This document shows positions 6,081 through 49,100 of a stretch of DNA of 64,000 nucleotides, in pieces. The DNA is taken from assembly GCA_035236585.1 (NCBI GenBank), contig CP141132.1, positions 27,425,445 through 27,489,444 on the forward strand, written 5' to 3'. A program made the translations under genes and the position numbers. The notes under the pieces were generated by a model. It searched no databases, was not told the DNA's origin, and saw only the letters and a list, made by a program, of their open reading frames with translations. This DNA is from Warburgia ugandensis (taxonomy: Eukaryota; Streptophyta; Magnoliopsida; Canellales; Canellaceae). Within the stretch, counting starts at the first letter, position 1. Each line of letters begins with the position of its first letter.

Positions 6081-6088
6081 TATAAATA
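6081..6088 (+). promoter_or_regulatory. TATA box of element A LTR (3' copy)
   Basis: TATAAATA in the same C-rich context as 115-122, at ~387 bp from the LTR start. Confidence 0.7.
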
Positions 6089-6690: not shown

Positions 6691-6695
6691 GTTTG
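6691..6695. repeat. Left target-site duplication of solo LTR B1
   Basis: GTTTG directly abuts the LTR and pairs with GTCTG at 11305-11309 (one mismatch). Removing one copy plus B1 restores the element A sequence seen near 725-735. Confidence 0.8.
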
Positions 6696-7101
6696 TGTGA
6701 CGACCTGGGTTTTTGAAACATGATTTGTAAAGTATTTTGAAAGGCAGGGCCCTTAAGAGTGTAAAAAATTTTTGCAAAACAAAGCAGCGAAAATTCTTTT
6801 ATTTATAACTTGTTTTGGAAAACCCAAGTCACCACTTCATACATAACATAAGTACAATTTGTGTACAAAATAAAATTCCATTGAAGGAATATACTTTTAT
6901 TAAACTCCAGGATCCATCCAGTGGTTCACAGTACGGCCAAATCTAGTACAATACTTGTCCAAATTACATAATCCAAAACTCAAGCTCACCATACAATAAA
7001 ACTCTCAACAAATAAAAATACATGTCTTCAAGGGCATACCGTGAAGATTATTCTCTTCAAGTCTTCTATAGTCTTCAGCTCCTAACTCTCCTTCCCTGGA
7101 T

Positions 7102-7132
7102 CTGAGATATTGCAACAAGTACAATATCTCAG
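7102..7132 (-). other. Stem-loop in LTR B1
   Basis: CTGAGATATTGCA and TACAATATCTCAG flank a 5-base loop, a 13-bp stem with one mismatch. It lies about 400-440 bp before the LTR end in RNA sense. The same palindrome is at 39384-39422 and 59492-59531, and in family E LTRs. Confidence 0.75.
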
Positions 7133-8040
7133 CAAGCAATGCTTGGTAGGAGATTCAAGAAACATAATAATTGACAGTGTAATTCCAATACTTCATATTC
7201 TCATTATCCTTAAACATACTCTGTACTTTGTAAGTTATGTATATTTATATACATACATACCCTTCATGGGTAAACTAGTTAAATTCATGAAAATAGTCCA
7301 ATATCATTCCCAACTAAGCTGATCAATTCTCTTCATTTTGAGAATTTAGTATTACAGCTAATCTCATAATGGGAATTTTCCTTCTTGGGAAACATTGGTA
7401 ATATACAATTACCTAGCATTTCATTATGCTATAACATAAGGCATTTCACTATGCCTATTCCCATATGCATCATAGTGCAAAATAATCAGAAAGGTTGCTA
7501 TGCTGTAGTTTGATCCGTACTAGCACGCTCGGATAATTACCCTATTCACCACTGATACCACGGTGGAAAATATTATGTCACTGCCCGTATGGGGGGGCAA
7601 GACTTTCACAGTGGTGACCTTCCCATAATTGCCACCACCCGACTTTTAGCATCTCATTGGGCAAGGTATCATCATATCATCAAATTTCAAGGAGCGGGTG
7701 GCCAAATCCTCATAACTCCTCTAGCAATAGCATACCCTAGGCTCATGCCTATTAAAACAAACTCACAAGCCTCCAAGCTTGTATGTAAAATAGCTTTCAT
7801 ATATATCAGACCATATGTCTGTTTACTTAGGGCTGAAATATTTTCTAGTTCCCTATTCACTTATAGTTTAGTCCTTAACCATCTTATAGGTGTTTGGTTG
7901 GATCATCAGGTTTTCAAGAGATTTAGTACAAGTATTATCATTACTCTTGTCAACATAAGATCATGAGTATAATCATGTATATCTCATGTAAATGCATTCA
8001 TCAAATCCTCTTACCTTTAAGGATTGATCTCTTTTCCCCA

Positions 8041-8520
8041 CTCTTCCATGATCTTGACCGATGTATGAAATCTGTACATCCATACATATTGTCAATGTAT
8101 AAATTATGAACAATCCTATTGATCACTAGATCTGATGTTTAGAATGATCTTTAGATCATTCATATCTAAGTATTTTTCTATCTCTAAGTCTTTGTATGTT
8201 CATCTCCTTGATCTTGATCCTTCATAGATCCTTTGATTGACAATCTACACATGTTGATAAAGATCAAGGTCCTAGATCTTCTATCATCTAGTTCTTCTTT
8301 GATCTAAGTTCAGTTCTTGGATCATCCCTATGGAGGATGATCTTGGTTTTCTTCCTTGAATCACCTTTGATCAAGGGTTTGGATTATCTAATCTAATGAA
8401 CTATAACAAGTATACTACTAAACATACATACTAAGTACAATATAGTGTTCTTATTCTTATTGTTCTTGATCATCCAAGATCTAATGGATCTTGTTTGATC
8501 GTCCTTATCTTACTTACTAT
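8041..8520 (-). other. GATC-dense block of LTR B1
   Basis: I count 18 GATC tetranucleotides in these 480 bases, where about two would be expected by chance. Many are in AGATC, GATCTT or GATCAAG contexts. A second dense stretch lies at about 9510-10190. Both recur in the other B LTRs. Role unknown; a cluster of transcription-factor sites is one possibility. Confidence 0.6.
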
Positions 8521-8599
8521 TTTTATTAGGGTTAGGTAATTTACTAACCTTTTATGCTCTTATTATTATTATTATCATTCAACCAGTTAGTGTCTTACT

Positions 8600-8890
8600 T
8601 GGGTGAAGATAATTTATTTCTTCCTATCACTAGACAACTCCTTATTTCAGGATGACCAGTACTTACCAGTTAAAGTCTGCTCAAAAAGTGGTCAATACAA
8701 CCCTCATGTAAGGAGGCGTTTAGACCTCTCTTACGTCAATGGGAGGTGAGGGAAAAGCACTTGGCTCTTGTATACCCCCTATAACCACAATGTTCAGAGT
8801 CCACTAGAGTGGTACTAGCTCAACCTTTGACAAGGTTCCTATGAGCTCTTTACCTTAAGTCCCTTTTCTAATTGATTTTAATTAATTTCC
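8600..8890 (-). repeat. Module shared between B LTRs and the Athila C1 leader
   Basis: This segment aligns by eye to 22560-22840, the leader upstream of the C1 gag, in the same orientation. Shared blocks in order include TACTTACCAGTTA, GTGGTYAATACAA, TTTAGACCTC, TGTTCAGA, CCACTAGAGTG and TCCTATGAGCTC. All long B LTRs carry it (about 41060-41340, 47780-48070, 61370-61640). Confidence 0.75.
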
Positions 8891-9369
8891 ATGGATATGC
8901 ACGATGTCATCCGTGGATGTTCATTATTTTCCTACTTTGGGCCAAGGAAATGATAAATCATTCCTTATATTGTCCTACTAACTATAGCCCTTATTAAGTC
9001 AAAATCATTCATTCATCTTAGTTGTCCATGAATTTCTATATTTCATTAGTTTACATTTTTGGTGATTTATGCTCCTTCTATCTTAACAATTGAATAAAAT
9101 TTGACAATAAGTAAATCATCAACTTGAAAGCATAAATCAAATATAAGTTTAACAACTATATACTAGCATTCTTCCTATGAATGTAACTTAAGCTAGTGAA
9201 ATAAAACTAACATGATCCTAAGTTATGAAACACATCTTCTATCATAATGAAATCATGTTTAAATCCTAATTTACACTAACATGATCCTAAGATAATCAAA
9301 TCTACTAACAAATTACTCATTTAGGGCATATCATACTAAAATTTAAAGATTACACTATCATGCTTTCTA

Positions 9370-9475
9370 ACTTAGAACATAAATCACATTTACACTTCTA
9401 TATCCAATAAAAGACAATTAAAACTTAAAACATAAATCACATTTACACTTCTATATCCAATAAAAGACAATTAAA
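9370..9475 (-). repeat. 53-bp tandem duplication in B1
   Basis: Two near-identical 53-bp units starting at 9370 and 9423 (each with ACATAAATCACATTTACAC). The related LTR at 38959-43923 has one unit, near 41870, so the duplication is specific to B1. Confidence 0.85.
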
Positions 9476-11304
9476 CTAATTTTATTAAGATTATTATAAA
9501 CCTTTAAATATGATCCAACCATTAGATCTTAGGTGTTTTCCTTTAGATTAAGGGTTTTAATTACCTTTAGGGCTTTTAATCCATTAAGATCCAAAAATCA
9601 TATCTACTTGATTTTGTCACATTTCCTCCATGATCTAACTGGATTCCATCATAATATCATCCCTTTAATCCATCCCAAGGATCTGATCATACTTGATCTC
9701 ATTGATCAAGAAGGTCCCTTTGTATTTTTTTTTTCTAATTTTAGGGTTTTTCTACCATAAAGGGTAGATCCCCTATTTTATCCATGATCTGTCCAAATTA
9801 ACCATAGATATTACTTTATTTCATTATTATATCATCGTTAAAATAAATTTCCAAGATCTGATCACCTCAGATCTTGAAGATCTTAGAAATTGGACACTTA
9901 TTTCCAAAATACAGAAATAAATTTTAGAAATATTATGACTTCATTAGAAACTAGACATTACAAGCTTTCCATAGCTTCTTTATGATCTCAATTTGGAGTT
10001 CATATGACTCCACAATCTTAAATTGAAGTTTTCAGCTGTTCCTAGGGTCCAGATTTGATCTAGGCCCATCATAATTAATCTCTCTCAATTGAGGGGTCCA
10101 AAACTGCTTAGATCTTTCTGAAACTTCTACCCTAGAGGTTTTGGACCATTCTGGATTGATTGGTGGAGTCAGATTTTTCATCTGATCACTCCATCATCAT
10201 GAATTAAGGGTTCTGTTGTTTACTTTATTTTTACCTTTTTATTACCAAAATTAATTGCAGTAAAATAAAAATTACATAAAACAATACTAAACATATATGA
10301 AAAGGATTTCCACTTACTTGATTGGAGAGAAAACCTCATTTATATGCCCAATTTAAAAAAATACCTTGTTGATGAAGATACAGCCTAAAATCCACCTTTC
10401 TTGCAAATACCGTTGTTTGAACCGTTGGATCTTAAAATTTCTTGGGTATTTTGTAGAAGAGATATGTTGGGAAGTTTTGGACGGTTGAATTGATCAAATT
10501 AGATCTGGAACTGAGTGTCTAATTAATTTTAGGTCTCGTGTTTCAATCTAAAAAGAAAAACAAGTTGAAAAGAGATCTAACTCTTGGAAATTTTGGGTTT
10601 TTGGGGAGGGATCTAGATCTAATTTTTCAAGCAGAGTGAAGATAATTTTGTGGGGAATTTATGAGGATTTTTGGAATATTTTTGGGGTTGTATGTATAGG
10701 CATTTTGGGTCTTTTTCCATGATTATAATATGTTATTTTTTTAATATAAAATGGCATGAAAGTCTTCAATGCTCCCATGCCTAATTTTTCTTCCCCATGA
10801 CCAGCTGATCTTTGTTGACCCATGTTTCACATGGGATTCTGATCAAATTGGTTGTTGGCGACGTGGTGGTCCCCATGTGGGCCCCACATGGTGTAAAAAG
10901 TCCGTTTTGCCCTTTATGCATAAAATTTTGGGTTTTATTCCCATGATCTCAAATTTGAGTGTACTTAGTGGCGTTGGATTCGTATTTCTCAGTACATTCT
11001 AAATTTTGATGTTTCATATTTTGATTTTTGGAATATTTTGATTTTTGGGTAAAATTACTATTTTACCCCTTTTGTACAAAAAATGAAAAACTTAAGGATT
11101 TCTCATCCGAATCAGAAATTTGTCATGCTTACAGTCATTTTGAAGGGTTTGCTAAGTTTAATTTCAATTTTACATATCTTATGATTTGATTATACTTTTA
11201 TAAAAAGTATATTTTAAATAACCCTAATATTTTAGCCCAAAATATCTGAAACTCAAACTTTATTGATTTTTCTCAATCAATTTACAAAAATTGGGGTTAT
11301 TATA

Positions 11305-11309
11305 GTCTG
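11305..11309. repeat. Right target-site duplication of solo LTR B1
   Basis: GTCTG, partner of GTTTG at 6691-6695. Confidence 0.8.
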
Positions 11310-13836: not shown

Positions 13837-13860
13837 CTGCTCAACCTGAATGAAACAATG
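13837..13860 (-). other. Decayed polypurine tract of C1
   Basis: The minus strand reads TTCAGGTTGAGCAG before the LTR start, with CATTAGGGACATTGTTT upstream. It is homologous to the better-kept tract of element D (CATTGAGGACAATG ... GTTTGGGGG). Confidence 0.6.
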
Positions 13861-15737: not shown

Positions 15738-18663
15738 TGTAATGACCCAAGTTTTCTTAACACTTTTTAAATACAAAAGACCTTGACATAGCAAGCTTGA
15801 TTTCTAATAAAAATCATTTTTAAAGAGTAAACAACAATGGAAGAATATTTTCTTTTAAAAATTCACTTTGAAAAACTCTTAGTGTCATTTTTCTTTTATC
15901 CAAACAAGGATTCTTAGTGAAATGATCACTCATTTCTATCAAAAATTCGATAGAGTTTCCTCGATTTTTTAGACGTATGACATTTAACTCATGTCATTGT
16001 GAAGTACCTAATAAACATTCAAATATTTTTCAAACATAAATGGAGACTCTGTCTCCTTTTCATACATCTAACGAAATAAAAGCAATTTACGTCAAACAAA
16101 ACACACCCAGATCTCCACGTCACAACTTAGTCACATAAGTTATTAAAACCCCATAAAATCACATACATTGCAGTTTCTTTCTCATTTCTGATACAATAAC
16201 TTCAATTCAATGAGCCATTCTTACCTATCTTTGTCAAAAGATTCTATTGGCGCACTCTTGTCAATATGCAGCTCCTATTTTGTGGAAATCCTTTGCTCTG
16301 AGATATTGTAATCAAGTACAATATCTCAGCAAGCTTGCACTTTTGTAGGTGGAATAAGATGCAGTTGTATATAAACAAAAGCATGATATTTCTATATAAA
16401 TTAATTTATCCATACTAAATCATGCAACTACCATTCAATTATTATTTAACTTAAAATAATTTAACATTCATCAAAATCATGAATTCATGCCAAAATGGAA
16501 GAAACACCAATGCATCAGTAATAAAACACATTCTTTGAAATGCAAAGTATGTAGTTACATGTCAAACTAATAAATCATTTTCATTTCCTAATACCAGTGT
16601 TTGTTCCTACAAACCATTTCACATTACCAAATACCAACGCGTCATGGTGTGTATTAGAGTGCACAACAAATGATATTGTCCTCTTTGGCAAAGTGAGTCA
16701 GCGCAATGGGTAAAACCCAAAGTCCCACCAACCCAAAGTCACACCTCAAGGCTTTGTTCCTAAGAGACCCATGGCTTGTCCAGTCCGAAGGCCTGCCCAT
16801 ATCATAACAACCCCTTAGAATGTGTTAAACTCGCTAAACAATGGGGATAAACTCTCATGGACTGGTAGCTAGTCCAACCAGGAATTGGTAACTTGTTTAG
16901 CCCTAAGGCCAACCCACATCATAACAACTCTATGGCTTGCCCACATCATAACGACTCCTTTTGCTCATATGAGCCATTTTTTTCCTAATATACATCTTAC
17001 ATTTTCTCACATGGTTCACAATGATGCATAGCTTATACATAAACAGTTTAATCATGGTTCAATTTCAGCATGCACATTCATCTTATCTTTCATATAAACT
17101 GAAAAGACTTGTTTTAATGCTTGAAATTCATATACAAATACATATATAGTGAAAATCTTAACAATCATAATTTCACCTACCTCAAATGGTGCTCTTCCAG
17201 TTCAATGATGTGAATACTTTATTCAGTTTGTGTATGCGCTCCCAATCAATCACGCCTTTGTAAAATACAAAAACACATTCAAATATACAATTCTAGGACT
17301 TCTCTTAGCTTTTCCAATATAAAAGCTCCCTCTATGTTAGTCCCTGGCACTAGTCATCACAAGGTGAAGTGACAGTGCTTATTTCTATGCATAGGGCTTT
17401 TCATTAGCTATTGGTTGATATTTAATTGAATGACAACTAGTAACTAGATTTCCAATCCCCACCATTGGCTTTAGATTGGCTATTCCCCATTCATATTAAG
17501 TAACTTTAAGTTGTTTTCACTATCCAGTGGCCTTATCTTTAATTTTTTTGAGTGTCTTAACTTCTTAAATGTTAGGGTACACCATGGTGGCATTTGATCA
17601 CCAATCAGAAGTGCCAAGTTCTTATTACTCTACTCTCCGGTTAGATAGTTTAGATTTTTTTGATCAATTTCAATCTAGATTCTTCAATTTGTACCACATC
17701 CTAACAATTTTAGTGCTGTAGAACTCATCTATGGTGTCTGATCATTGATTAGATATCGAAAATTTATTGTGTGAACAGTACTCGATTGGATGACTAAGAT
17801 TGTCCGATCAATTTTTCAGCCTAGATTGATGATCTTAGTCAATTTGAGGCTTTATCAAGTACTCACTTACCTAATCCTAGGTTTGGATTAAGAAATGGAC
17901 AATTAGATCATCCCTAAATCTAGATCTAGCATAAAAATGCATGGATTTAGCAAAATACATCAAATCAAAAGTTGGGTTTTGTAAATCTTACCCTCTAAAT
18001 CTATTTTCGTGCTTTTCCCTCTTTGGAATGCTCTAGATCGACTCTGATCCATCCTAAAAACCACCGACCTAGGAGTAGCACGATCTCTCCTTCAATTCGG
18101 TGTTCAATAGAGCACGAATCATTCCAAAAGCTTAGGGCTTTGGTTCATGCTCGTGCATTGAGAAGGTTAGTTAGCTCGGATTGACCACCTAAGCCGTTGT
18201 CTTCTTTGGCAACACCCGGGAACTTCGCCACCCAAAAACCCTAACTCCTCTTGTTCTCTGGTGTGGGTGGGTTTCTTGGTGTGCAAATTCGCCAACAACC
18301 CCCCCCCCCTCCCTTCTCATTTTCTCCTTCTCTCTTCTTCTTCCCTCGCTCCACTGCTCTTCTCCCCATCGTGGACATTTTTTCTTCTTTCTATCCGTCA
18401 GGTTTGGGAGAAGACAGACCCAATGCCAGTCGGGTTCACTTACGTGAGCGGGTGCCAGTATAAATTTTGCGCCCTTCATTTAAGTAGTTAATTTTTTTTT
18501 TAAATCTTTGTAAAATCATATCTTCCTCATTTGGACTCCGATTTCTATGTTCATAGTGTCATTGGAATTGTTTTTTTGAGTACTACTCAATTTTTGATGA
18601 TTCATAATTAATTTTAACATAATAAAATTAGCCCTAAAAGAATTAAAATCGTGGGCTATTACA
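15738..18663 (-). mobile_element. Solo LTR E1 inserted in C1 pol
   Basis: The plus strand begins TGTAATGACCC and ends GGGCTATTACA; read on the minus strand it starts TGTAATAGCCC. It is homologous over its whole length to the LTR at 52854-55654. It has no interior. Flanks ATAAT+T (left) and TTAAT (right) suggest an imperfect target duplication. Joining the flanks gives PFEIMCDA, the normal Athila RT/RNase H junction. A C-rich run (about 18299-18309) precedes a TC-rich stretch. Open frames of up to 96 codons at 18189-18491 are compositional. Confidence 0.88.
16298..16329 (-). other. Stem-loop in LTR E1
   Basis: CTGAGATATTGTA and TACAATATCTCAG form a perfect 13-bp stem around a 6-base loop. It is kept with one mismatch at 53414-53445 in E2. 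Confidence 0.78.
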
Positions 18664-19811
18664 TTAATCTCAAATGGTGCATTTCAATCTAGTGGGTGTA
18701 GAAGTCGACCCTACCTAGAGTCGCTCAAATGCTTTCTTATAATCCTCATCAAAGTAAGAAATGACCTCCTTTGTAGGTAAATTACAGTGTTGCTTAGAAA
18801 TTTTGCTAAAATCTTTAATGAAGCATCTGTAAAAGGCAACATGTACTAAAAAGGAGCAAATTTCTTTCACCATCCTTAGTGGAGGAAGGTTGGGTATCAA
18901 ATCCACTTTTTCCATATCAACTTCTATCCCATTGGGTGATATTATGTGGCCTAAGGATATCCCACTTTGTAGCATAAAATGTCACTTTTCCCATTTTAAA
19001 ACAAGTTTTTTCGCCAAACACCTTGCTAGAACTAACATTAGGTAGTGTAGGCGCTTAATAAATGATGACCCAAATACTGAGAAGTCATTGATAAACACCT
19101 CAAGAAACCATTCTACCATTTTAGGAAAAAAGCTAAAGATACACCATTGAAATGTAGTTGGAGCATTACAAAGCCCAGAAGGCATACATTAGTAAGTGAA
19201 GGTTCCAAAGGGACGAGTGGAGGTCATCTTCTCCTAATCCTCTAGTGCTATAGGAATCTTGTTGTAATGGCAATGTCCATCCAGAAAATAGTAATAGCTA
19301 TGTCTCGTTAACCTTTCTAGCATTTGGTCAATGAAGGGTAGAGGAAAGTGATCTTTCCTCATGACCGTGTTTAACTTTCGATAGTTAATGCAAACTCTTC
19401 ATTCAGTGGTCATAAAAGTGGGTACAAACTCATTATCCTCATTTTTTACTATTGTGATCCCAAATTTCATGGGTACAACCTGAACAGGGCTAACCTATGT
19501 ACTGTTAGAGATAGGATATATAACACCAACATCTAAAAGTTTTAGAATTAATCTAAGGCCACATCCTTCATGTGGGGATTAAGATGTCTTTGAGTTTTCG
19601 TATAAGGTTTTGCATTTTCTACAAGGTCTATCCTATGCATGCATACTGTGAGACCAATCCCTTTGATGTCTGCTATCATCCACCCTAGAGTAGTTTTATG
19701 TTCCTCAAGGACATTTAAAATCATACCCTCTTGTTCATTTAAATTTGATGCTATTAACACAGGTAATGTTTCATCTAGGCCTAGGTATGAATATTTCAAG
19801 TTGTTAGGCAA
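18664..19811 (-). pseudogene. Reverse transcriptase region of C1 pol, broken
   Basis: Reverse transcriptase copies element RNA into cDNA. From the right: a pre-RT stretch (LPVLIASNLNEQEG, then GWMIADIKGIG and CMHRIDL); the palm with YYFLDG near 19290; then MPSGLCNAPTTFQ after an in-frame stop. The active-site box reads VFINDFSVFG, where the family has FMDDF, so the first catalytic Asp of the YVDD-type motif is Asn. SLGHIISPNGIEVD and FYRCFIKDFSKI follow as the thumb/connection. The frame is split by several stops, and the domain is cut at 18664 by E1. Confidence 0.88.
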
Positions 19812-20480
19812 CGGTTATAGGTCCAGAGAAGGTGGTTGCTATATTGAGGGTATGGGGATAGATTTAGAAGGTGGGTGTGGTTCCACATAATGACCCCACT
19901 TGGAAGTATCCATGACTGGAGCAGCATCCATTAAGGTGCATGAGACAGTCCTTTAGTGGGTCAAAAATGGACAATGGTGGATAATCAAATTGACATCGCA
20001 AGAATCATCAAGTTCTAAATGTTATTAATTGGTGTTAAAGACATTTAGCTTAACTTTAAAGCTGTCGAATAACATTTTTGTTACACCATTCCTACAATTA
20101 ATAATGGTGTTGGACGTCACCAAGAGTGGACATCCAAGGATGACAGGAATTTAATTGTTTAGATTAGATACAGGTTGGGTGTCTAGTACAATGAAATCAA
20201 CTGTGTAATAGAACTAGTCCACATGTATCAAGATATCTTCAACCAAATCATGGGGTATCTTGATAGATCTATCCTCTAATTGTAGTATGGTACTGGTTGG
20301 TTTTAACTCACGAAGTCTTAAATGCTCATAGATAGAGTATGATAACAAGTTAATACTCATCCCTAGGTCAAGTAATGTCTTATCTATGACATGATATCCA
20401 ATAGCACAGGAAATGGTAGGACACCTTGGGTCTTTAAACTTTGATGGGGTTTTGTGTTGAATCAAATAGCTTACCTGCTC
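19812..20480 (-). pseudogene. Aspartic protease region of C1, broken
   Basis: The protease would process the Gag-Pol polyprotein. The open stretch 20214-20465 contains DPRCPTISCAIG, then DKTLLDLGMSINLL, where DLG is the expected catalytic D-[TSL]-G, and LQLEDRSIKIPHDLVEDILIHVD, typical of Athila proteases. The rest, towards 19812, is interrupted by stops but corresponds to the better-kept C2 sequence (FGNIKVKLNVF). Confidence 0.82.
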
Positions 20481-20600
20481 GGTGAGGAAAGATTTCTTTT
20501 GTACATATAGTTAGGATACCTTGGGTCTCTAAAGTTTGATGGGGTCTTGTGTTGAATCAAAGAGCTTACCTGCTCGGTGAGGAAAGAGCTTTCTTTTTCT
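20418..20600 (-). repeat. ~95-bp tandem duplication in C1 (gag/protease border)
   Basis: Units start at 20418 and 20513; both carry ACCTTGGGTCT and CTTACCTGCTCGGTGAGG. C2 has a single unit near 57485-57575, so the duplication arose after the two copies separated. Confidence 0.85.
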
Positions 20601-22418
20601 TGTGCAAAGCTCTTTTAAGAACTTGACATAGGTAGGGATGTCTTTAATTTTCATTGAGTAATGGAATATTGATTTGGACATGTTTAAATACCTCCATTAA
20701 CTCGTTGAAGTTTGTTCCCTTTCTAGCGTTGTTCAATATTCAAGGAAAAGTGGCTTTCGGAACATAGTGTGCCTCCATTATAGGCTTTATAGGGTTCTTC
20801 TATCTTTTCTCCCTTCTCTTGTGTTTTGGTTACCACTTTCTCCTCCGTAGTTTCCTTAGCTTGCCCTACTTTGTTACTGATTTGATGATCGCATCTAAGG
20901 GTGGTTATAAACTTGGTAAGCTCATGAGGGTTAAGGTTTTGAGAACTTGACCCTATCTGAAATTGGTCCTTCAGGTTAGGGATGGGTTGACTAGGGCACT
21001 GACCCTTTCCTCTATTATGTAGTTCAATTGACAATTGGCTTACCTGCATATCCAACATCGCTATGGCTTGAGAGATGACATTGGTTGAATGTTTACTCTC
21101 ATTTTGGAACTTGTGTAAGGCCTTTTTAGTGTCACCATTATCTTTTCAAAGTTTTTCAAGCATAGTGTGGATGTTTTCCTCTAAACAAGGTTTCTTTTGT
21201 TGATGATGTTGTTCAAAGCTAGGTCCTTGTTGGGGAACTATAGTTTTATGAGGAAATTTTTCGGTGGGGGGTTCATAGTTGGTTCCCCTTGGAAGTTATT
21301 CTTTGACCAAGTAAAGTTAGGATGCTTAGCCTATCCAAGGTTGTAGGTCTTAGAATATGGGTTGTTGTTAGGTTGGTGATATGCATTCTCTTAATCAATA
21401 AGATAGTCGTTCAACACTTTATTTGATGGAAAAGACATGGTTATATGGACTGGGCTCGAACATATAACACAAACCTCTTATGGAGGCTTAAGGGATGAGG
21501 TAGCCATAAAGGATTGAAACATAGTTTCATGTTTGTTTACCCTACTATCAGACCTATCTAATCTTGCTATAACAGAATTGAGTTTATTGGATAGATCAGT
21601 ACGCACTCCTATCTCATTGAGACCCCATCTCCTGGTGGGCTAGTTATTTCTCTCTCTTCTATTTGAATAATCCCATTACTAGGAATTATCTTCCATAATT
21701 TAAAAGAACTCCCAAGCGTCACTCTCATCCTTTAGCATGAGAGTCCCTCCACTCTTTGCATCTATCATTTGTCTACTTTGAGGCATCAATGCCTTGTAGA
21801 AGTATTGAACTTCCTACTATTTTTTGAATCCATGATGTGGACATTCTAAAGCAATTGATTCCACCATTCCTAACATTCATAGTATTGTTCAACATCCCTT
21901 TGTTGGAAATTAATAATTTCATGATGAAGGGCATTTGTTTTGTGAACAAGGAAGAACTTGTTTAAAAACTTTCTAGACAATTGGTTCCATGTATTGATGG
22001 AACCTACATCTAAGGAATTAAGCCATGATTTAGCCTTATCCTTAAGAGAGAATGGGAATAACCTAAGCCTAATAGAATTATCCAAAAAAGAATTTCCCCT
22101 AAATGTGGCATATGTATTAAGGAACTCCTTAATGTATAGGTAGGGGTCTTCTCAATCTCGATCATAAAAAGTGGGAAGCAATTGTATGATTCCCAACTTT
22201 AACTCAAATTGGTTTGTGTTTGTAGGAGGTAAAGCTATGCAAGATGGGTTGTTGAGTTGTAGTAGTGCATAGAAATCTCTAATGGCTTTATGCTCAATTT
22301 CTACTTGTGGTGCAGCCAAGGAGATAGGAACATGGTTCCTTTCCCCTTATCTTATCTTGTGTTGAATTTCTAGGTTGAAAGGTGTTAGCTGTGGGTTTTG
22401 AGATTGACGATCTTGCAT
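20481..22418 (-). pseudogene. Athila-type gag, broken (C1)
   Basis: Gag would form the virus-like particle. The likely start is the ATG at 22418, reading MQDRQSQNPQLTPF. Then come FYALLQLNNP, NQFELKLGIIQLL and YDRD(stop)EDPYLYIKEF. The best-kept core (21870-22085) reads IRLRLFPFSLKDKAKSWL, then GSINTWNQLSRKFLNKFF and IINFQQRDVEQYYE, a clear match to plant Ty3/gypsy gag. A nucleic-acid-binding cysteine region (CAIC-like in C2) lies near 21480. The C-terminal part (20723-21058) has FITTLRCD and a charged stretch. Stops and frameshifts are frequent. Confidence 0.85.
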
Positions 22419-22861
22419 AAACTATCCTACACTAAGTGCCCTAATCTAATTGCTGACTCTAACTCTACATGATACACAATCGAATCCTAATAAGCACTAA
22501 TTGAGCAATGTTTTGATTATCTTTGCTTAGTACATATGTAGTAGCTTCTTAGACCTAAATCTAGTCAACTCCTCCTTTTGTCAAGATTTGACTACTACTT
22601 ACCAGTTAGGTTCTACTTAAAAGTGGTTAATACAATTCTCATATTAATAGGCATTTAGACCTCATCTAACATCAATAGAAGGTGTGGGAAAATCACTTAG
22701 ATTTTAAGACACCCATTATAACCATAGTGTTCAGAAGCCACTAGAGTGATAAGATATCACATATTTCTTAAAGAGTCCTATGAGCTCAATACCATAGGTC
22801 TCTCTCTACTTGATTTTAAATTAATGTTCAAAGGTTGGGATCGTGGCATACAAGGATATTA
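22419..22861 (-). other. Leader of C1 (5' untranslated region between primer site and gag)
   Basis: It lies upstream of the gag ATG. The part 22560-22840 is homologous to a segment inside the B LTRs and, more weakly, to the leader at 37377-37690 read in reverse. It stops at 22861 without a primer site, so the C1 5' end is lost. Confidence 0.7.
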
Positions 22862-23360
22862 ATTGATTCTTAGGTTGGCGAAGGAGCTGGTAATAAAATC
22901 CAATCTTTATTGTATACGGGTTCCTATGGGGGCCTTACTACTAGTATTGGCCATTAAAAAGCTCATTTTTTACCTTGATATTGCTAAAACCCATAGAAAG
23001 CTCCACCTTAATGATTTGGAAGAACTAAAGAAAGATGCATATGAGTCTATTAAGTTATACAAAGACCACATGAAAATCCTTCTATTTGGTGCAAGTCTTT
23101 CACCCTAAGACATAAGGTCCTCTTGCATAATTCTATATTGCATTTATTCCATGGAAAACATTGATTTTGATGGACTAGATCATACATAGTACATAATATT
23201 TATCCTCATGGGACTGTCGAGATTCAAAAGGATGGAGACATTTCCATAGTCAATGGCAAAGGTTCAAACCCTATTTAGAGTTGGTCAACCCTGAAGTAGA
23301 AGGAATATTGCTATATGAATTAGTCTACCATGACCCACCTAAGCATGTTCCCTGATACCA
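22862..23360 (+). pseudogene. Integrase C-terminal fragment, element D (Athila-like, plus strand)
   Basis: The minimal readable stretch is AIKKLIFYLDI, THRKLHLNDLEELKKDAYES and KLYKDHMK, the usual end of Athila-type integrase. It continues in other frames with IQKDGDISIVNGK and ends ELVYHDPPKHVP-stop. It faces C1 head to head, and the left junction at about 22862 cuts into integrase, so the rest of pol is missing. Several frameshifts are present. Confidence 0.82.
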
Positions 23361-36901: not shown

Positions 36902-38063
36902 TTCACGTCAGAGTATTAATTAAGATCTAATTATAATAAATTACCACTAGTCATAGTTTTTAGTACTTCATATTGAATAGTTGCATTTTTTGCATTATTA
37001 TTTTCTATAATCCTAAAGATCTTTGATACTTCTTCCTTTTAATTTGAGGAAGTATTTAGAAAAGAGGTGGAAGAAGACTTAGGAGAGTCATATTTTTCAT
37101 TTTGAGTGAATTGAAGTGAGATTGCACTTATAATTTTTTCTTTAATCATGATTCATTCAAAATTAGGTTTGCACTGCTAGTTTAAGTTTGCATTATGGAT
37201 GGTAGTGTAAAGCATGTGGAAAGCATTTTATAATCTATTGCATTCTAGGGCTTTGCATTATATGGCACAATTATTGCTTTCAGGTGATAAAGTTTGATCA
37301 AACTACCAATAGAATGCTTACCTAATTAGTAAGGGAACTTACCTTTACAAGATCATGTGGATTTCATCACCATCCCTTCGCCCATCTAGGTTAATCATCA
37401 CCTTACATGCAATCCTAGCCTTTACAATTTAATTAAAAATCACTTAGATGAGACCTATAGTAGCATACGGCTCATAGGACCCTCTTGGAAAGAGGGAAAC
37501 TATTGTCACTATGGTGGCCCCTACTTGATTAGTTACATCGGTATTTAAATGACTAGATGTGCCTACTAATCCAATGATTTAGATCATTGATGGCTAATAG
37601 AGAAGGGTGCGAAGTAGTTGATTAAGGTAGGACCTAATTGGTAAGCAGTATGACAAGTCAAAAATTGATGAGGAGCTAATTAGGGTAGAAATAATTTAAA
37701 AGGCACTCCCCCAAAGAAAATAAAGAAAAGTCAGCCTTCCAGCCTTGTTTGGCATAGGGATAGACTTATTGTGTGTACCTTTTCTGGGTGCATCATTTTG
37801 TGTATAGGTTGCATTATTTGGTTTAGTTTTCCCCTGGACTAACAGAAAAGGGTACTCTTGCATTATATACAATGATTTGTTTTCATTGTCTACAAAGTTC
37901 AGTAAACCAAGGCAAGGGTTACATAATCAAGTAGATCCAATTGTCCCTACAAAAAATATGGCCCATGAAGTACAGGTTAAAAAGCACTTTCTTACTATTT
38001 TACTTACTAGCCCATTCATTATGAAGATATGTATTGGATAGGGGATACTCTATATCTATCCAG
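36902..38063 (+). other. Leader of the H element (5' non-coding region)
   Basis: It follows the primer site. The part 37377-37690 is homologous in reverse orientation to the C1 leader (22560-22861): ATTTTTAATTAA-type ends, CTCATAGGACCCTCT and GACCTAATTGGTAAG. No gag motif was recognised before the truncated B LTR interrupts it at 38064. Confidence 0.6.
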
Positions 38064-38958: not shown

Positions 38959-41900
38959 TATGATGACCCAAGTTTTTGTAACACATTTTGTAATACATTT
39001 TTCAAAGGCAAGGCTCCCTTAGTAGTAAATTGTTTTCACAAAACAAAGCAACAAAAATTCTTTTCTTTAAAACTTGTTTTGTAAAATTGAAGTCATCACT
39101 TCATACATAACATAAGTAGAATTTTGTACAAGATAAAATTTCATTGAAGGAATATACTTTTATTAAATTCTAGAATCCATCAAGTGGTTCACAGTACAGT
39201 CGAGGTATCAATATAATACTTCTCTAAATTACATAATCCAAACTTCAAACCTCACCATGCATTAAAAGCTTTCAATACAATACAATGCTCTCAAATAAAA
39301 ATATGTCTTCAAGGGATGTACCCTGAGTGATTATTCTTTCAAGTCTTCATAAGTCTTGAGCTCATAATTCTCTTTCTTCGTATTTGAGATATCGTAAACA
39401 TTGAAAAATTTACAATATCTCAGCAAGCTATGCTTGGTAGGGGATTCAAGAAGCATAATAATTTGACAGTATAATCCTAATACTTCATAATCTGATTATT
39501 CATACCCATGGAGCAATCTCTTTACTTTGTCATATATGTACATCCTTACACATACATACGATATACTGTGTATAGATATATACATACGGTAAAAATCGTG
39601 AAAAATAGTTAATATCTCAAAACATAATCATACCTAGCTTATGCTGAGTTGATAAATCATCCAAATTCCACTGGAAATACTCCCTCATTTGGGTAGTATC
39701 GGTAATCCACGATTCGGCGGCATCTCATCATGCCATATCATAAGGCATTTCACTATGCCATGTGTCATAATGCAAAAATACTCAAAGAACTACTATGCTG
39801 CAGTTTGATCTATACCAACATGCTCGGATAACTGCTTTCATACTCCATGGATACCAAGTGTGGAAAATCATCTACGTCATGTCTATATGGGGAGACAAAC
39901 CGTCACAGTGGTGGCCTTCCCATAATTCCCCACCCAACATTTTGTCTCTCATTGGGCACAGTATCATCATATATATCTCATTTTGGAGAGGCTCCATAAT
40001 TGTATGTAAAGTAATCTTTTTACTTACCAAACGTCTTGTTTGTTTATATAATCAACTTCATATTTTGGTATTCTTATGTTGAGGATAGGATTTCACTTTA
40101 GACTTAGGGATCATCATTTACAATAAATGATACCCATATTCATACATGTTTAGGGATCATCATTCTATATGAATGATTCCCATGTATTGATTTTATACTT
40201 ATCAAACAATCTGTCTATTCATCTAGGGCTAAAATAACATCTAGTTCCATATTCACTTATGGTTTTCCTCAATTATAACTTAACCATTTCATATGTGTTT
40301 TGGTTGGATCATAAGGGTTTTCAATGGATTTAATATAAGTATTTACATTATACTTGTCAACATTTTTAGACATAAGATCATGTATTCAACATGTATTTCT
40401 CATGTAGATGCAATTCATAAGATCCTCCTACCTTCTATTATCCTGACTGACGTATGTAATCTGTAAATCCATATATATTGTCAATATTTATACAACTTGA
40501 ATAATCCTATATGTTTTATCCTATCTACATTCTTTGTCTAATCTTGTCCTTTAATATAAAGGATCTATATCTTGTGTCCTATCATGATCTATCTCTCTCA
40601 AATAGCATTGATCAATAGAGGCTAGAATGATCTTCTAATCATTCAAATGTATGCATTTTCTATTCTAAGTCTTTTTGTATTCCTTTCTTTAATCTTGATC
40701 TTTTATAGATCCTTTGATCAACAATTTATCCATGTTGACAAAGATTAAGGGCTTAGATCTTCTATCATCTAGTTCTTCTTTGATCTAAGTTCATTTGTTT
40801 GATCATCCCTAAGGAGGATGATCTTGGTTCTCTTCCTTGCATCCTATTTGATCAAGGGTTGGAATTCTCTATCTAGATTTGTCTACAACATACATACATA
40901 ATAAAGTACAACATTAGGATTCTCATTGTTCTTGATCATTTAAGATCCTATGAATCTTGTTTGATCATCCTTATCTTACTTATAATTTTTATTAGGATTA
41001 GATAATTTACTAACCAATTATGCTCTTATTATTATTATTCAACTAGTTAATGTTTTACTAGCTAATGATAACTCATTTCCGCCTAAGTCTAAACTACTCC
41101 TTTTATTTCCAATTGGTTAAGGCTTACTAGCTGAATGGTTGAACACAAAGTGGTTACTTCAATCCTCTTGTAAGGAGGCGTTTAGACCTCATAAACGTCA
41201 ATGGAAGGTAGGGGAAGAGCGAGGATCTATTAGAAAAGCCCCTTAACCACCATGTTCAGCATTCACTAGAGTGACCTTAGCTCAACCTTTCATAAGGTTT
41301 CTATGAGCATTTTAACCCTAAGTACTCTTTTTAATTGATTTTAATTAAATCCATGAACATTTAAATTGTCATTCATGGGGTTTATTATTTTTCTAGTTTG
41401 GGCCAAGGATTTGATAATCCTTATATTATCCTACTAACTATAACCCCTACTAATATTAAGTCAAAGTCATTCACTCATCTTAATTGTCTATGAATCTCTA
41501 TATTCCATTAGTTTATATTTTTGGTGATTTATGAATTTTGAGACATAACCACTAGTTAAACAATTATATCTACTAACTTAAAGACAATAAAGATGCTTAT
41601 ACTATACTTTGACAATTGAAATAATCATACACTTTAAATCATAAGAGAATTGCACATCTATATCATTCTAAGGGAATTTATACTCTAATATACTAACATA
41701 AAGCCTAAGTTATAAAATACATGAAATTTTACTACTAATCTAATGGAATCATGCTTAAACTTCAAGTTTAAACTAACATGGCCCCAAGATAAATAAATCT
41801 ATCAACTTAATAATATTTAGAGCATAGCATGCTAAATTTTAAGAATTACACTAACATGCTTCTTAATTTATAACATAAATCACATTTACTATTATATTCT

Positions 41901-43923
41901 CAAATAAAAGACAATTAAAATAATTAGATTTAGATTATTAGAAACTTTTACTTATGATCCAACCTGTAGATCTTAGATGTTTTACTTTAGATTAAGAGTT
42001 TTAATCACATTTAGGTCTTTTACTCTATTAAGATCCAAAGATAATATCACTTGTTTTTGTCACATTTAATCCATGATTTCACTGGAATCCATCATAATCC
42101 CATTTGTTCAATTCTTACCAAGGGCCTGATCATGCTTGATCTCATTGATCAAGTGGGTCCCTTTGTATATTTAGGATTTTTCTACCATAAAGGGTAGATG
42201 CTTCAATTTATCTTAGATCTATCCAAATAAATCATGGATATTACTTTATTTCAACATTATATCATTAGAAAATCTGATCCCCAAGATCTGATCATCTTAG
42301 ATCTTGAAGATTATGAAAATTAGAAGCTTAATTCTTAAAAATAGAAAGTTTCTGGAATTATTTTTATCAATATTATGATTTCATAAGAAAATAGATGTTA
42401 CAAGCTTTCCATGGCTTCTTTCCAATCTCAATTCGGAGTTCAGATGACTCCACAATTAATGATCGAAGTTCACAGTCATTCCTAGGGTCCATATTTGATC
42501 TGGGCCCAGTAGAATGGACGACTAGGATCAGTCGAGCAGAATGATCACCTCGCTCTTGTCACCAGGACACACACAGTAAAGCACATCCCAGGACCAGTGC
42601 TATTGCGTGGTCGTTCCATCAGGAAAATGTTGCATGTAGAGTGCATGCGCGAAGATGTTCCAGCAGGGTGCATTTTGTGTGGCATCCCAGGATTCCGATC
42701 ATTGAAAGAAGATCGGATAGTCCATTTTCAACCATCCAATCAATTATTCTTCAATTAAGGGCTCAAAACTTGATAAAAATCCTTGAAATTTCTGCCCTAG
42801 GGGTTTTGGACCCTTTTGGATCGATTAGATAGCTTAGATTTTCCATCTGAGCCCTTCATCATCCAGATTTGAAGGGTTTTACCCTCACTTGATTTTTATT
42901 ATTTTTAACCTAAACTTAATTTCAGAAAATTAAAATTTACATAAAATAACATGGAACAAGTGTGGAAAGGGTTTCCGCAGAGAAAAACTGTGGTTTTGTA
43001 GCCCAAATTAAAAGAATATCCGCTTGATGATAAGATAGCCTAAGAACTGCTTGTCTTGTGATTTCTCATTGTTTGAACCATTGGATCTTGAAATTGATTT
43101 GGGGGTTTTGTAGATAAGGTAGTCTAGGGTCATATGGATGGTGAGATTTATGAGTCTTGATTTGGAATAGAGTGCCTAATTGAATTTAGGTCTCTTGTTC
43201 CAATCTAGAGAGAGGAGAGAGAAAGTGTAAGAAGAGAGGTTTTGGGAAATTTTGGAAATTCAAGAAGGAATCTAGATATGAATTTTTAAGGTAAGCAAGA
43301 TGATTTTGTGAGAAATTTACTAAACATTTTTGGAGGATTTTTTGGGGTGTATTTATAGATGTTTTTGAATTTTTCATAATTACTTATAATAATTATGTTT
43401 CAATTCTTTTGAATATTAAATTAACATTGGATCCTCCACTATCACCTCCTTTCGCACTAGCAAATGGTTGTGGTTGGACCACTCATTACATGTTTTCTAG
43501 CCATTGGATTTGTTTGTGGGCCCCATAGAGGTGTGAAAGGACCATTTTGCCCTATTATGGAGAAAAATTCATTTTATTCTCTCGAACTCAGAATTGAGCG
43601 TGCTTAGTGGTGTTGGACTCGTATTTCTGAATACATTCAAAATATTGATGTCTTAGGTCTTGGCTATGGGTTAGTTACCATTTCACCCTTTTATTCATAA
43701 AAATAGAGAAAATTAGGGATTTTTCATTTTAACTCGGAATTGAAGGTAATTAGTGTCATTCCAATATGTTTTTCGAGTACATTTGTAATTTCTAAGTTTT
43801 AAATTATATTTTAATCTAGATAAAAAGAGAATTTCCAATAACCTAATATTCTAGCTCAAAATTTTTGAAAATTAAAACTAAATTGATTTTCTCAATCAAT
43901 TTACAAAAATTGGGGTTATTTCA
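38959..43923 (-). repeat. 3' LTR of element B (B3), subfamily I
   Basis: 4,965 bp. The minus strand starts TGAAATAACCCC and ends GGTCATCATA, with the terminal CA mutated. Its U3 half is homologous to B1 (for example TTTTGGTGATTTATG near 41520 and 9060). It holds the hairpin at 39384-39422, two copies of the GGGATCATCATT-type short repeat (40100-40190) and the leader-like module at about 41060-41340. A GC-richer block at about 42510-42700 is absent from B1 and different from that of B4. Confidence 0.85.
43350..43357 (-). promoter_or_regulatory. TATA box of LTR B3
   Basis: The minus strand reads CTATAAATAC. The counterpart in B4 is at 50374-50381 and in B5 at 63774-63781. Confidence 0.68.
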
Positions 43924-43934
43924 ATCTTCCACCT
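43924..43934 (-). other. Polypurine tract of element B
   Basis: The minus strand reads AAGGTGGAAGAT before the 3' LTR, preceded by TTTCAAAGACAAAATTATTA. The layout is the Tekay-type 'TTTCGAGGACGAAATTT' plus purine tract. Confidence 0.85.
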
Positions 43935-44289
43935 TATAATAATTTTGTCTTTGAAATTTGCAATTCAACTTACTTATGAGTTTTCATTAACTCATTCATA
44001 AGTTTTCTCATGAGCCTTGCTACTTAAGGAAACCTCCATTTCCTTTCATTCATAGTTCATATTACCTTCCCTTTCAAAAGAAAATTCACATTTTTGCGTC
44101 ATAAACACACATCTTAGTAATAATGCTAATGCATTAGTCACTTCAGCTAATACTTTGCTAGACTTTCTAAAAGGAATAATAACTCTTAACTGAGTTATCC
44201 TTTTCTTTCCTTTTTCAAAAATCTTTGTTACTAATATCTATTTCCTCAGAGATTTATGTTTTATTTTTCCTATGAAGGTTGAAGTTATT

Positions 44290-44420
44290 TCATCTATTTC
44301 AAATCTCAAACCTTCCAATAGATTTATGCAAATTCATAGTAAAGAACAATTATTGTTCCTGTATCCTCAATCAAATAATACCTTTGCATCACTATAAGTC
44401 ATAAGCAAAGTACCTTCAAT
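44290..44420 (-). pseudogene. Trace of aspartic protease (element B)
   Basis: The minus strand reads TYSDAKVLFD-stop-G, resembling the ..AYVLFDSGA active-site region of Tekay-type proteases with a stop inside the D-[ST]-G motif. RFEIDEITSTFIG follows. Short and weak; the remainder of pol between here and the purine tract is deleted. Confidence 0.5.
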
Positions 44421-44519
44421 TTTTCCTTAGGATGATTGACCTTCCGTAATAGCAAATACCCTCCCTTCGTGTCGAGGGACATTTTCTAGTTTGTCATCCT
44501 TGATTGCCAAAGGTTTGTT

Positions 44520-45517
44520 GCAGTGATTGGCCATATGTCCCAACTCTCCATACTTCTAACATTCAACTGGGGGTCTTTGTTGTTGTGGCCATTGATTGTA
44601 ACATGGTCTTCTAGGATGAAATCTTTTACATTTAAAACATGGTTTTTGATTTTGTCCAATTGCAGGATTTCCTTGATTTCTTTGTGGCCTGAGATTGTTC
44701 ATGCATCCTTTTCTTTTCTTAAAAGGTTGTGGATTGAAGTCTCCCACTCCCCTTTTCTCATTTTGGTTTTTCTTAAGGCCATTTCCACACATTCTGCCAA
44801 GGTCATGGGTTTAGTACAAAGTACCTTTACTTTCAATCCTGGGTGAAGCCCTTCTGTGAATCGATTTACTGTGTGTATTTCAGTGTTACAGACATGAGTC
44901 ACAAATTTCCTTAACTGCATAAAGTTATTATCATATTCTACCATTGACATGTTTCCTTGTCTAAGTTCAAGAAACTCTATCAACTTTCTTGCTTGTACAT
45001 GAGAAGGGAAATATTTTTGGTTGAAGACTTCCTTAAATTCTTTCCATGTAGTATTTTTAGAATTTGAGAAGAAGGTATTGTTAACTGAGCTCTACCAAAA
45101 TGCAGCTTCTTGTTCCAATAAATAGGTGACAAATTTAACCTTCAACTCTGGAGGAGTATGTAGTGCACTGAAAGTCCTTTATAGTTCATATATCCATTCC
45201 TCAGCCTTCTTAGCTTCTCCTTTGCCATTATACCTTGTAGCCATCTTTTGAAACATTTTCATCATTTTGTTTACCTTTTCTGGGGCTAATGGAGAATTTC
45301 TAGCTTCTTCACTTGGTACAGTGAAAGATGGACCCTATACCAGTGTGGGAGTATTTGGTGTTGGTGTTCATGTATTGTATCTCACTTTAGGCTGAGCTTG
45401 AGTACTTGGTACTTCTACTGGAGGTGATGAACTTTGGGGATGTTGAATGTGAGGAAAAAGGTTCCTCAATACTCTCGTTGCCACCTCTTTCACATTATCC
45501 ATTGTTAATCTCTTCAT
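44520..45517 (-). pseudogene. Tekay/Del-type gag, broken (element B)
   Basis: It would encode the capsid/nucleocapsid precursor. The likely start at 45517 reads MKRLTMDNVKEVATRV. Then come EKVNKMMKMFQKM, ELKVKFVTYLLEQEAAFW with a stop after it, and TWKEFKEVFNQKYFPSHVQ. The longest open part is FLELRQGNMSMVEYDNNF through MTLAECVEMALR. After a frameshift near 44790 come CFKCKRFHPRRPC and a second zinc knuckle, C(stop)KYGELGHMANHC, in which one Cys codon is Tyr. The order capsid, CX2C motif, CCHC knuckle is usual for this lineage. About 330 codons with several breaks. Confidence 0.85.
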
Positions 45518-46091
45518 ACTATCTTCTGGAGTACTTTGTGGTATCTACCTTGTGACTCTCTTCGCTGCTCCTAAACCAAAATACTTATTCGTATTCCATA
45601 CAACTATTTCTATCATATATAAGTAGAATCAATATATTTAAAATCATCATATTAATATTCCTATTCATTTATAGGTCTTCACTTTCCATTCTATCATCTC
45701 CTTCTCTTAATCTCCATTATTTCACCTCATAATAGTTATTTTTATTTCTACAAGTATCTTAAGATTTTAGGTTATACTTGAATATCATACATTACATCTT
45801 ACTATTCCCTATATTGATATCATTAACTTACTAAGTAGTACTCCTAGTTATTTCACTAAGTACTATCGACTTATGCTCCTCTAGTACTTCATGAGTTAAT
45901 TACATTAACTCCTCACCAAATGAGTTAATAACATAACTCTTCCTATACTCATTCTCAACTAATGAGTTAATCACATAACTCATTCTCATCAAGCACTATC
46001 TTATTTCTTATTCACTCATTATTTCTCATCCTCCAATTGGATTGTCATCTTGATATTGGACATAAGGGTACTATACTGTGACTGGATGAAT
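45518..46091 (-). other. Leader of element B
   Basis: Non-coding A/T-rich stretch between the primer site and gag. Around 45830-46000 it contains several near-repeats of ACTCATT and ATGAGTTAAT. Nothing else seen. Confidence 0.6.
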
Positions 46092-46104
46092 GGCTCTGAT
46101 ACCA
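46092..46104 (-). other. Primer-binding site, initiator tRNA-Met type (element B)
   Basis: The minus strand reads TGGTATCAGAGCC, two bases after the LTR end GTTGTCACA. Confidence 0.93.
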
Positions 46105-46106
46105 AC

Positions 46107-49100
46107 TGTGACAACCCAGGTTTTTATAACACATTTTGCAATAGTGCCCTTAGTAGTAAAAAAATTTCCCAAACGAAAGCAGTGAATATTCTTTTCATTA
46201 AAACTTGTTTTGTAAAACCCAAGTAATCACTTTATACATAACATAAGTAGAATTTTATACAAGATAAAATTCCATTTAAGGAATATACTTTTATTAAATT
46301 CTAGAATCCATCCAATGGTCCATAGTATAGCCCAGGTATCACTACAATACTTGTCCAAATTACATAATCCAAACTTCAAACCTCACCATACATTAAAAAC
46401 TCTCAATACAATACAATGCTCTCAAATAAAAATACATGTCTTCAAGGGACATACCCTGATTGATTATTCTTCCAAGTCTTCTTAAGTCTTGAGCTCTCTT
46501 TGGACAAGATATCATAACATCAAATTTTGGGAAGTGCATAGCCAAACCCTCATAACTTCTCTTGCATAGCATCCACAGACTTTTGCATGTTTAAAACAAA
46601 ACCACAAACCTCCATGCTTATATCTAAAATACTTCTTATACATCTCAGATGATTAGTCTGTTTATATTATCATTATCATTCTCATATTCAATATCCTCAT
46701 ACTAAGGATATAAATCTATTTCTAGATTTAGGGATTCTCATTTACAATGAATGATACCCATATTCTTATAAGTTGAGGGATTAATCATTTATTGTAAATG
46801 ATCCTCATTTCTTTTAATTTGGTATTCATATACCAAATGTTATTAAGTGTAAGGATACTCATTTAATACAAATGATATCCATTATTATTATGTTCTTATC
46901 TAAGTTTAGGGGTAATCATAAATGATACCCAGGTATTTATTATATGTTCCATCTAATCTCAATAGTTATCTCTATTCATATACATGAATTATGATTCAAA
47001 TGTAACTAAGCATGTTATCATTCTTAAGCATTATAATGTCTATGTATAATAGCAATTCCATAGACCATAGGTCTTGTATTCTTAAAGTTCCACCTACCTT
47101 CATGTAGTGATCCATCCCTTCAGATCCTCCAGAATAGACATATGTAATCTGGAAATACACACATACTGTCATTTATTTGTACAAGTTTGGATAATCTCCT
47201 ATCTATATTCCTTATCTAATCTTACCCTTTGATATAAAGGATATAGATCTATCATGTGTTCCTATCATCCACATAATCTATCTTCCTCAGATAGTATTTT
47301 ATCCTATTGATCAATAGATTTGATGGTTAGAATGATCTTCTAATCTTTCAGATCTAAGTATTTTCTATCTCTAAGTCTGTGTATCCATCTCTTTGATCTT
47401 GATCTTTTATAGATCCTTTGATCAACAATCTATTCTTGTTGATAATGATCAAGGGCTGAGATCTTCCATCATCTAGTTCTTCTTTGTTCTAAGTTCAGTT
47501 ATTTGATCATCCCTAAGGAGCATGATCCTGGTTCTCTTCCTTGAATCATGTTTGATGAAGGGTTTGGATTATCTAATCTAATGATCTAGATTTGATCTAT
47601 AACATACTTATTAATAAACATGGACACTAAGTACAATACAATGTTATTATTCTTATTGTTCTTGATTATTCAAGATCTCCTTATGGATCTTGATTATCTT
47701 ACATACCATTTTTATTAAGATTAGATATTTTAGTAACCTTTTATACTCTTATTATTATTATTATTATTATTATTCAACCAGTTAATATTTTACTGGTTAA
47801 AGATAGCTTATTTCATCCTAAGTCTAGACTGCTTCTCTTATTTCCAATTGATTAAGGCTTACTAGTTGAATGACTGAACACAAGGTAGTTACTTCAATCC
47901 TCATGTAAGGTGGTATTTAGACCTCACAACCGTCAATGGAAGGTAGGGGAAGAGTGAGGCTCTATTTGAAAAGCCCCTTAACCACCATGTTTAGCATTCA
48001 TTAGAGTGACCTTAGCTCAACCTTTCATAAGGTTCCTATGAGCATTTTAACCCTAAGTACTCTTTCTAATTGATTTTAATTAAGTCCATGAACATTTAAA
48101 GTGTCATTCATGGAGTTTCATTATTCTCCTAATTTAGGCCAAAGAAATGATATTCCTTATATTATCCTACTAACTATAGCCCTTACTATAATTAAGTTAT
48201 GTCATTCATTCCATGTAAATGTCCTTCAACTCTAATTTTCATTTAATTACATTTTTAATGTAATTTTCATAACATAAGCATTAAGCATTAAGCATAAATA
48301 AATAAGTAAATCTAACAATTAAATCTACTGAGCAATAAAAGACAATTATAATAACATTCAATAATTCAAATGAAAATTTAACATGCCATAACTATTCATC
48401 ATAATCCAATAGTCATAGTTGATTTCTATTCATTTTTCATCCATTTTAGGGTTTAGATCTTGATCTTTCATTTTCCTTTAGATCTAATACATCTTAATGT
48501 GATTTGATCACTAGATCATTGATGAATCTCATCCAATGATCTGATCCTTCTTGAGCCAACCGTTCAAGAAGATCTTAAGTCTTTTTATCCAATTTAAGGG
48601 CATAGATCTTAATCCATCCTAATTTATCATCATCAAGTCCATCAATCCATATGATATTAACTTTATATCATCATCCAAATACATCCATACTATCCAATCC
48701 TCGTTGATTGAATTGATCAAGGAGATTACCATTCATTTTTATGGATTTTACTACTTGTAAGGCTAGATCTCTTAATTAGACATAGATCAATCACTTCCAA
48801 CCATTGATTCCATGTTTTAAAATGACAAGATCATTAGTGGATCAGAATGATAGAGTTTAATCATTGCAAATTTGACTAATCACAGGAATTAGTAATACTT
48901 TTCTTTATTAACAGAATTTTACATGCATCAAAACATAAATTTTCTAAGTTTAGTAGGTTCTCCTCATCAAGAGGAATCCAACCCAATTTTTCGATCTTAA
49001 TTTGGACTTAAATTGAGATTAGAATTTAGATTTTAAGATTTCAGCCCGTTTTAAGGGCCGATATTGATCTTATTGTTTTTTTGTTCAATTAATTGATCTA

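Follow-up and report, generated by a model that had tools for sequence, protein, structure and literature searches.

LTR swapping is said to have been described in soybean by Du in 2010, between elements that are relatives or partners, and in plant LTR retrotransposons, to our knowledge, the signals for packaging and those of the leader are largely unmapped. Diaspora of soybean, a member of the Athila lineage, has a tRNA-Asp primer-binding site (PBS), 873 bp between its LTR and gag, and splice sites that are predicted only (PMC1142308, in the part available). The two Athila subfamilies described here, C and D, resemble it in their tRNA-Asp PBS and unusually long LTR–gag stretch; unlike the case of C and D, the available part of that paper mentions no conserved RNA domain. 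TR-GAG elements consist of LTRs and gag only and need pol from others, which is also the anatomy of the family B described below; the active example in the available part of PMC8704663 is a Ty1/copia element with a close autonomous relative, whereas in B the LTR contains part of the leader of a different lineage. As summarized in part of PMC5491270, non-autonomous rice pararetroviruses carry noncoding regulatory sequence of their partner, kept by recombination, as B may do: those pararetroviruses are circular and their shared sequences near-identical and kept homogeneous, whereas here the resemblance is 67–74% and spans two lineages of LTR elements. In grasses, recombinant centromeric retrotransposons likewise show that exchange of LTR/UTR pieces makes new families, but the exchange outlined in the accessible part of PMC4079200 is between relatives or partners; here it is between elements with unrelated gags. 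Judging from these partial accounts, both the exchange of LTR/UTR pieces and gag-only elements are already known; we found no report, by title or beginning of abstract in the open-access literature, of a structured domain from an Athila leader inside the LTRs of other elements, such as a gag-only family with an unrelated gag.

We analyzed a stretch of 64,000 nucleotides from Warburgia ugandensis (the window, C7:27425445–27489444; genome 1.12 Gb, 14 contigs), in which six strong copies of one segment are distributed between B LTRs and Athila leaders (Table 1). Each copy has an E value below 1e-38 with a covariance model built from these six copies and related sequences; the next-best match of this model in the window has an E value of 0.14.

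Table 1. Segment copies, their host elements, and RNA and promoter features in the window (P1 coordinates in B1 converted by hand from alignment A1).
Feature	Position	Strand	Remarks
Segment in B1 LTR, most likely Athila-derived	8620..8971	-	RNA domain core 8620-8871
B1 LTR, nested in A-type LTR	6696..11304	-	
B2, 3' LTR of B2-B3 gag-only element	38959..43923	-	segment 41079-41333
B2-B3 element interior	43924..46106	-	iMet-type PBS 46092-46104; gag piece 44702-45091
B3, 5' LTR of B2-B3 element	46107..50967	-	segment 47814-48068
B4 LTR, inserted in Athila C2	59066..64000	-	segment 61379-61633; LTR extends ~358 bp past window end
Segment in Athila C1 leader	22540..22900	-	RNA domain core 22551-22809
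Athila C1 leader, gag, part of pol	18655..22963	-	
Segment in Athila subfamily D leader	37341..37720	+	RNA domain core 37443-37693
TATAAG	8964..8969	-	only motif of its kind that aligns across B1-B4
Predicted helix P1, 5' side in B1	8843..8847	-	pairs with 8636-8640
Predicted helix P2, 5' side in B1	8812..8818	-	pairs with 8656-8662
Predicted helix P3, 5' side in B1	8801..8807	-	pairs with 8666-8673
Predicted helix P4, 5' side in B1	8782..8787	-	pairs with 8689-8694

The relationship between the B1 LTR and the leader of Athila C1 is direct: blastn aligns B1 8638–8886 with C1 22572–22825 in the same orientation (74.6%, E 6e-35), and softer alignment scoring extends this to B1 8623–8956 against C1 22554–22893 (71.6% over 345 columns). 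The local score of 113 far exceeds the maximum of 20 in 500 dinucleotide shuffles. An earlier note on this DNA had proposed a same-orientation match of ~260 bp between 8600–8890 and 22560–22840; the match and the order of its named conserved blocks are borne out by these alignments, and the length is revised to a stretch of ~350 bp common to B and C (about 8623–8971 in B1). By the covariance model, the segment is indeed in all long B LTRs of the window (B1–B4, 4/4), and the length of these LTRs is 4.6–5.3 kb instead of ~4.9 kb. The weaker homologue placed at 37377–37690 stands out clearly against C1 (score 55, shuffle maximum 20) and weakly against B1 (23, maximum 16); it is not a third kind of host: it lies in the leader of the second Athila subfamily, D, which is collinear with C. 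The idea that the B LTR and the Athila leader are homologous throughout was rejected, as their flanks fail to align.

Retrieval of further Athila loci bears upon a simpler origin of the C1 copy, namely a B LTR fragment inserted in C1. We collected 30 C loci, from 40 scored matches to the C1 stretch (7409 first-look candidates), and 12 D loci, also from 40 matches. The C1 stretch retrieves one family: 24 of the 29 other C loci are collinear with C1 for more than 900 bp gag-ward of the segment, and because they stay collinear past it, an inserted B fragment was rejected as its origin. In C2 (L010) the match to C1 covers ~460 bp gag-ward of the segment, and in four of the 29 it ends after ~100–120 bp; two of the 24 collinear loci, L033 and L034, have identical segments. 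Upstream of the segment most C loci mutually agree over hundreds of bases, C1 itself being broken at 22963. One locus, L018, has two segment copies in opposite orientation (1499–1910 and 2493–2852).

In Athila the segment sits between the primer site and gag. An Asp-like PBS, called with up to 4 mismatches of 18, was found at half of the C loci (15 of 30), at 4 of the 12 D loci and in none of 30 shuffled C stretches; in C it lies 570–675 bp before the segment. We take the tRNA-Asp primer-site motif upstream of gag to be a mark of Athila; to the eye, the gag, PR and RT pieces of C and D look Athila-like, and C1 has an INT piece at 14588–15046 (PF00665). Downstream of the segment, a related gag is present at 9 of the 12 D loci, and at the C locus L041 the domain occupies 125–383, with the gag-side frame open from 513, i.e., 130 nt after the domain. 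Over 19 of the 30 C loci, conservation of the segment (0.85–0.88) is above that of the gag side (0.69–0.82), but not above that of much of the adjoining 5' leader (0.79–0.87).

The proposal that part of an Athila leader lies within B LTRs is supported by these data; whether the piece moved in that direction or in reverse had been left open. Flanks were compared between 5 of the 12 D loci and 3 of the 30 C loci: the real score was above each of 100 shuffles in 8 of 15 pairings 5' of the segment and in 3 of 15 pairings 3' of it, and D–C matches outside the segment were also found by blastn. For B and C (3 of the 4 window B copies), the corresponding counts are 1 of 9 and 0 of 9. Because flanks are common to C and D and not to B and C, an Athila leader piece most likely entered the B LTRs. 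A tree of 54 rows is neutral on direction: B and D each form one clade (100/100 each), and B is placed among the C rows with modest support (97/77, 93/82), but forcing C together without B is 7.6 log units worse and is not rejected (p-AU 0.276). Several placements compatible with the tree would accommodate the opposite event, entry of a B LTR piece into the Athila ancestor of C and D; we regard that as very unlikely, given that some of the comparisons reveal leader sequence common to C and D to either side of the segment, whereas B and C lack it, and that B is one tight clade. The halt of B–C similarity at both sides would also be expected of a SINE- or MITE-like segment, mobile in its own right, that hit both B and Athila. 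Against this, every locus examined, all having been fetched by similarity to the two hosts, is a B LTR or an Athila leader and has the segment in the same place, and C and D have flanks in common; such an element is an extremely improbable source.

The recipient family was characterized from its interior, which in B2–B3 is 2.2 kb long. From 83 scored matches to this interior we took 29 places with a near-full second block, one being the window's own contiguous copy. Twenty-four are compact, with the first block within 1.5 kb (spans of 2115–2498 bp), and four are without the first block. In all ten of the compact copies that were fetched, the match continues into the 3' LTR after the short interior, the LTR starting ~182–195 bp into the fetched stretch, behind a purine-rich tract. 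Since the interiors are compact and a 3' LTR directly follows, B is a gag-only family, in agreement with the earlier note. It has the LTR, PBS, gag, PPT, LTR order without pol by which TR-GAG elements are recognized, but in place of an intact single gag ORF the window copy has its gag in broken pieces. That gag matches PF03732 (E 1.6e-14) and Ty3_capsid (E 3.9e-10); together with the iMet-type PBS, a Ty3-type gag fits Tekay or chromovirus, though it is not specific to Tekay. The B gag also matches a gag piece beside the 52854 LTR (40%, E 1.7e-24), and had no match to the one Athila gag piece tried.

The segment is present at six of eight predicted B 5' LTR sites; the other two, L082 and L085, have other sequence instead. 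These two belong to a region (C6:52517955–52529737) in which two B interiors lie ~9.3 kb apart in the same orientation, perhaps as a tandem LTR–interior–LTR–interior array. Full-length B1-type elements were also sought: an iMet PBS was seen within the 45 nt after none of 14 fetched LTR 3' ends, nine of these ends being clearly readable (the end called in L071 was plainly wrong, L079 yielded no end, and those of L068, L078 and L081 were too near the start of their stretch).

The place of the segment in B RNA depends upon where transcription starts. Identity among B1–B4 is 0.62–0.77 near the LTR 5' end, ~0.52–0.65 from 9100 to 10620, 0.78–0.88 from 9050 to 8116, 0.53–0.79 between 7290 and 8030, where it falls, and 0.8–0.88 near the LTR 3' end. 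There are three promoter candidates: TATAAG at 8969, a second box, TATAAATA, at 10698, and a third, TATA-like word at 7793. A start at TATAAG would place the domain ~70 nt into the B RNA, and one at TATAAATA would place it ~1.8 kb in; a start at 7793 would leave the segment untranscribed from that LTR. The segment is thus likely transcribed in B, from a start site predicted from sequence. These motifs also bear on whether B LTRs acquired a core promoter with the segment, any RNA fold being a by-product of Athila ancestry. TATAAG is aligned in 4/4 B LTRs, B identity climbs from ~0.55 to 0.83 at ~9050 in the element direction, and a similar motif is found in C leaders (26 of 30 leaders have it with two changes or fewer, and 14 of 30 have it exactly). 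On the other hand, TATAAATA is a better TATA-like box and is, like the word at 7793, aligned in B2–B4, and promoter use leaves unexplained the paired changes within B that are described next; we consider promoter capture decidedly unlikely.

Evidence for an RNA structure was derived from an alignment of 39 sequences, comprising 12 of the 23 B rows, 15 of the 30 C rows and all 12 D rows. RNAalifold returned 16 pairs, eight with compensatory change (energy -3.52, covariation term -2.55). A 25-pair sense fold of four helices has 93.0% standard pairs, whereas slid versions of it pair in at most 46.7% of cells; it contains 70 doubly changed cells against 27.7 (s.d. 5.0) in shuffled alignments, with 0 of 500 as high. 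Pairs with any double change (9) and pair types (36) were not in excess, with 403 and 377 of 500 shuffles, respectively, as high. Bearing in mind that this fold was chosen on the same sequences, we ran an all-helix search on column-shuffled alignments: the real alignment gave 22 nested pairs (2 of 1500 column shuffles as high), 61 doubly changed cells (11 of 1500) and a sum of 83 (6 of 1500), compared with 8, 12 and 20 under antisense pairing rules. The best helix alone was matched by 11 of 150 column shuffles. A first consensus fold, on 25 sequences, had a z of -7.5 but an unfavourable covariation term (1.5 vs 0.2 shuffled). Compensation is above shuffles within B and between groups, and not within C or within D; the signal stems from differences among a small number of lineages and hence from few independent events, and the lack of within-group signal is as expected if old copies decay freely. 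Single-sequence folding energies are ordinary (z -0.9 to -1.9). For the RNA fold, the conserved sense-strand structure speaks in favour, and the missing compensation in C and D and the ordinary energies speak against; that the predicted fold is kept in B, C and D is supported but not proven. A search of Rfam with 4 of 99 loci (E up to 1) gave two weak matches, both below gathering score and outside the segment. A simple splice donor was considered and set aside: GGTAAG is conserved, yet its bases contribute to helices P2 and P3 and to the internal loop. Splicing at the segment may occur.

We hypothesize, with somewhat more belief than doubt, that a structured RNA domain of the Athila leader was borrowed into B LTRs with its predicted fold kept. 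According to this proposal, a cis-acting RNA domain of ~350 nt would be native to the Athila 5' leader, where it lies after the primer site and before gag. A segment of this kind, nearest to the C type, would have been copied into the LTR of a B ancestor with an unrelated gag, either through a template switch while the two RNAs were packaged together or through illegitimate recombination of copies nested in one another, and would then have been retained. Its sense RNA would fold into four nested helices, preserved across B, C and D, and would act in genomic RNA, most plausibly in Gag packaging or dimerisation, or else in gag translation through the long leader. The seeming preservation of the predicted fold in both lineages suggests that B borrowed a working control element; that its work is packaging or dimerisation we put at slightly short of an even chance. 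A bolder version, which we consider unlikely, gives B two masters: a Ty3 chromovirus-like partner, which its LTR ends, primer site and gag would fit, and Athila, whose packaging domain would admit B RNA to Athila particles. If true, one plant harbours a gag-only element that travels between two lineages of retrotransposons.

Translation is a possible though somewhat doubtful role: short upstream ORFs would terminate ahead of a closed RNA domain, with the ribosomes carried over the leader to gag, an ORF-then-closed-domain layout that is the same as in plant pararetrovirus leaders that mediate shunting. The end of a short ORF falls within the interval from 40 nt ahead of the 5' side of P1 to 5 nt past it in 12/12 B (shuffled expectation 6.2) and 15/15 C sequences (expectation 6.9), and a function based on the host's translation would explain how the segment works beside an unrelated gag. 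However, only 4/12 D sequences have such an ORF end (expectation 5.9), and the sequence is AT-rich with frequent stops, the shuffles preserving single-base content only. A domain that has persisted after transplant into an unrelated element marks a possible site of a packaging or leader signal. The segment offers a definite structure to probe and a natural experiment on portable leader parts; furthermore, LTR similarity can mislead lineage assignment.

Other LTRs in the window are without the segment by the covariance model: the A-type stretches (1–2374, and 5967–6697 with 11309–12995) and the LTR type at 15738–18655 and 52854–55651. The ends of both types resemble B LTR ends; an empty-site comparison of B with them was abandoned, there being too little in common. 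We also noted that a stretch of 80–150 bp recurs, in both orientations, in otherwise unlike elements (5830–5978, 10948–11028, 18442–18615 and 28625–28832). The stretches 36583–37039 and 51201–51657, 94% alike and in the same orientation, flank the B2–B3 element; because the former adjoins the D leader, they may be LTR parts of a D element. The leader break of C1 is filled by an inverted pair, 13034–14276 and 23093–24365 (67% alike), which matches a 3' part of Athila (L041 5527–7110). Finally, the LTRs at 15738–18655 and 52854–55651 occupy the same place in the pol regions of C1 and C2, respectively, a place where L041 (4213–4242) has none; the LTR is solo in C1 and has a PBS and gag alongside in C2. 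C1 and C2 being sister copies, this was probably one insertion that was then duplicated.
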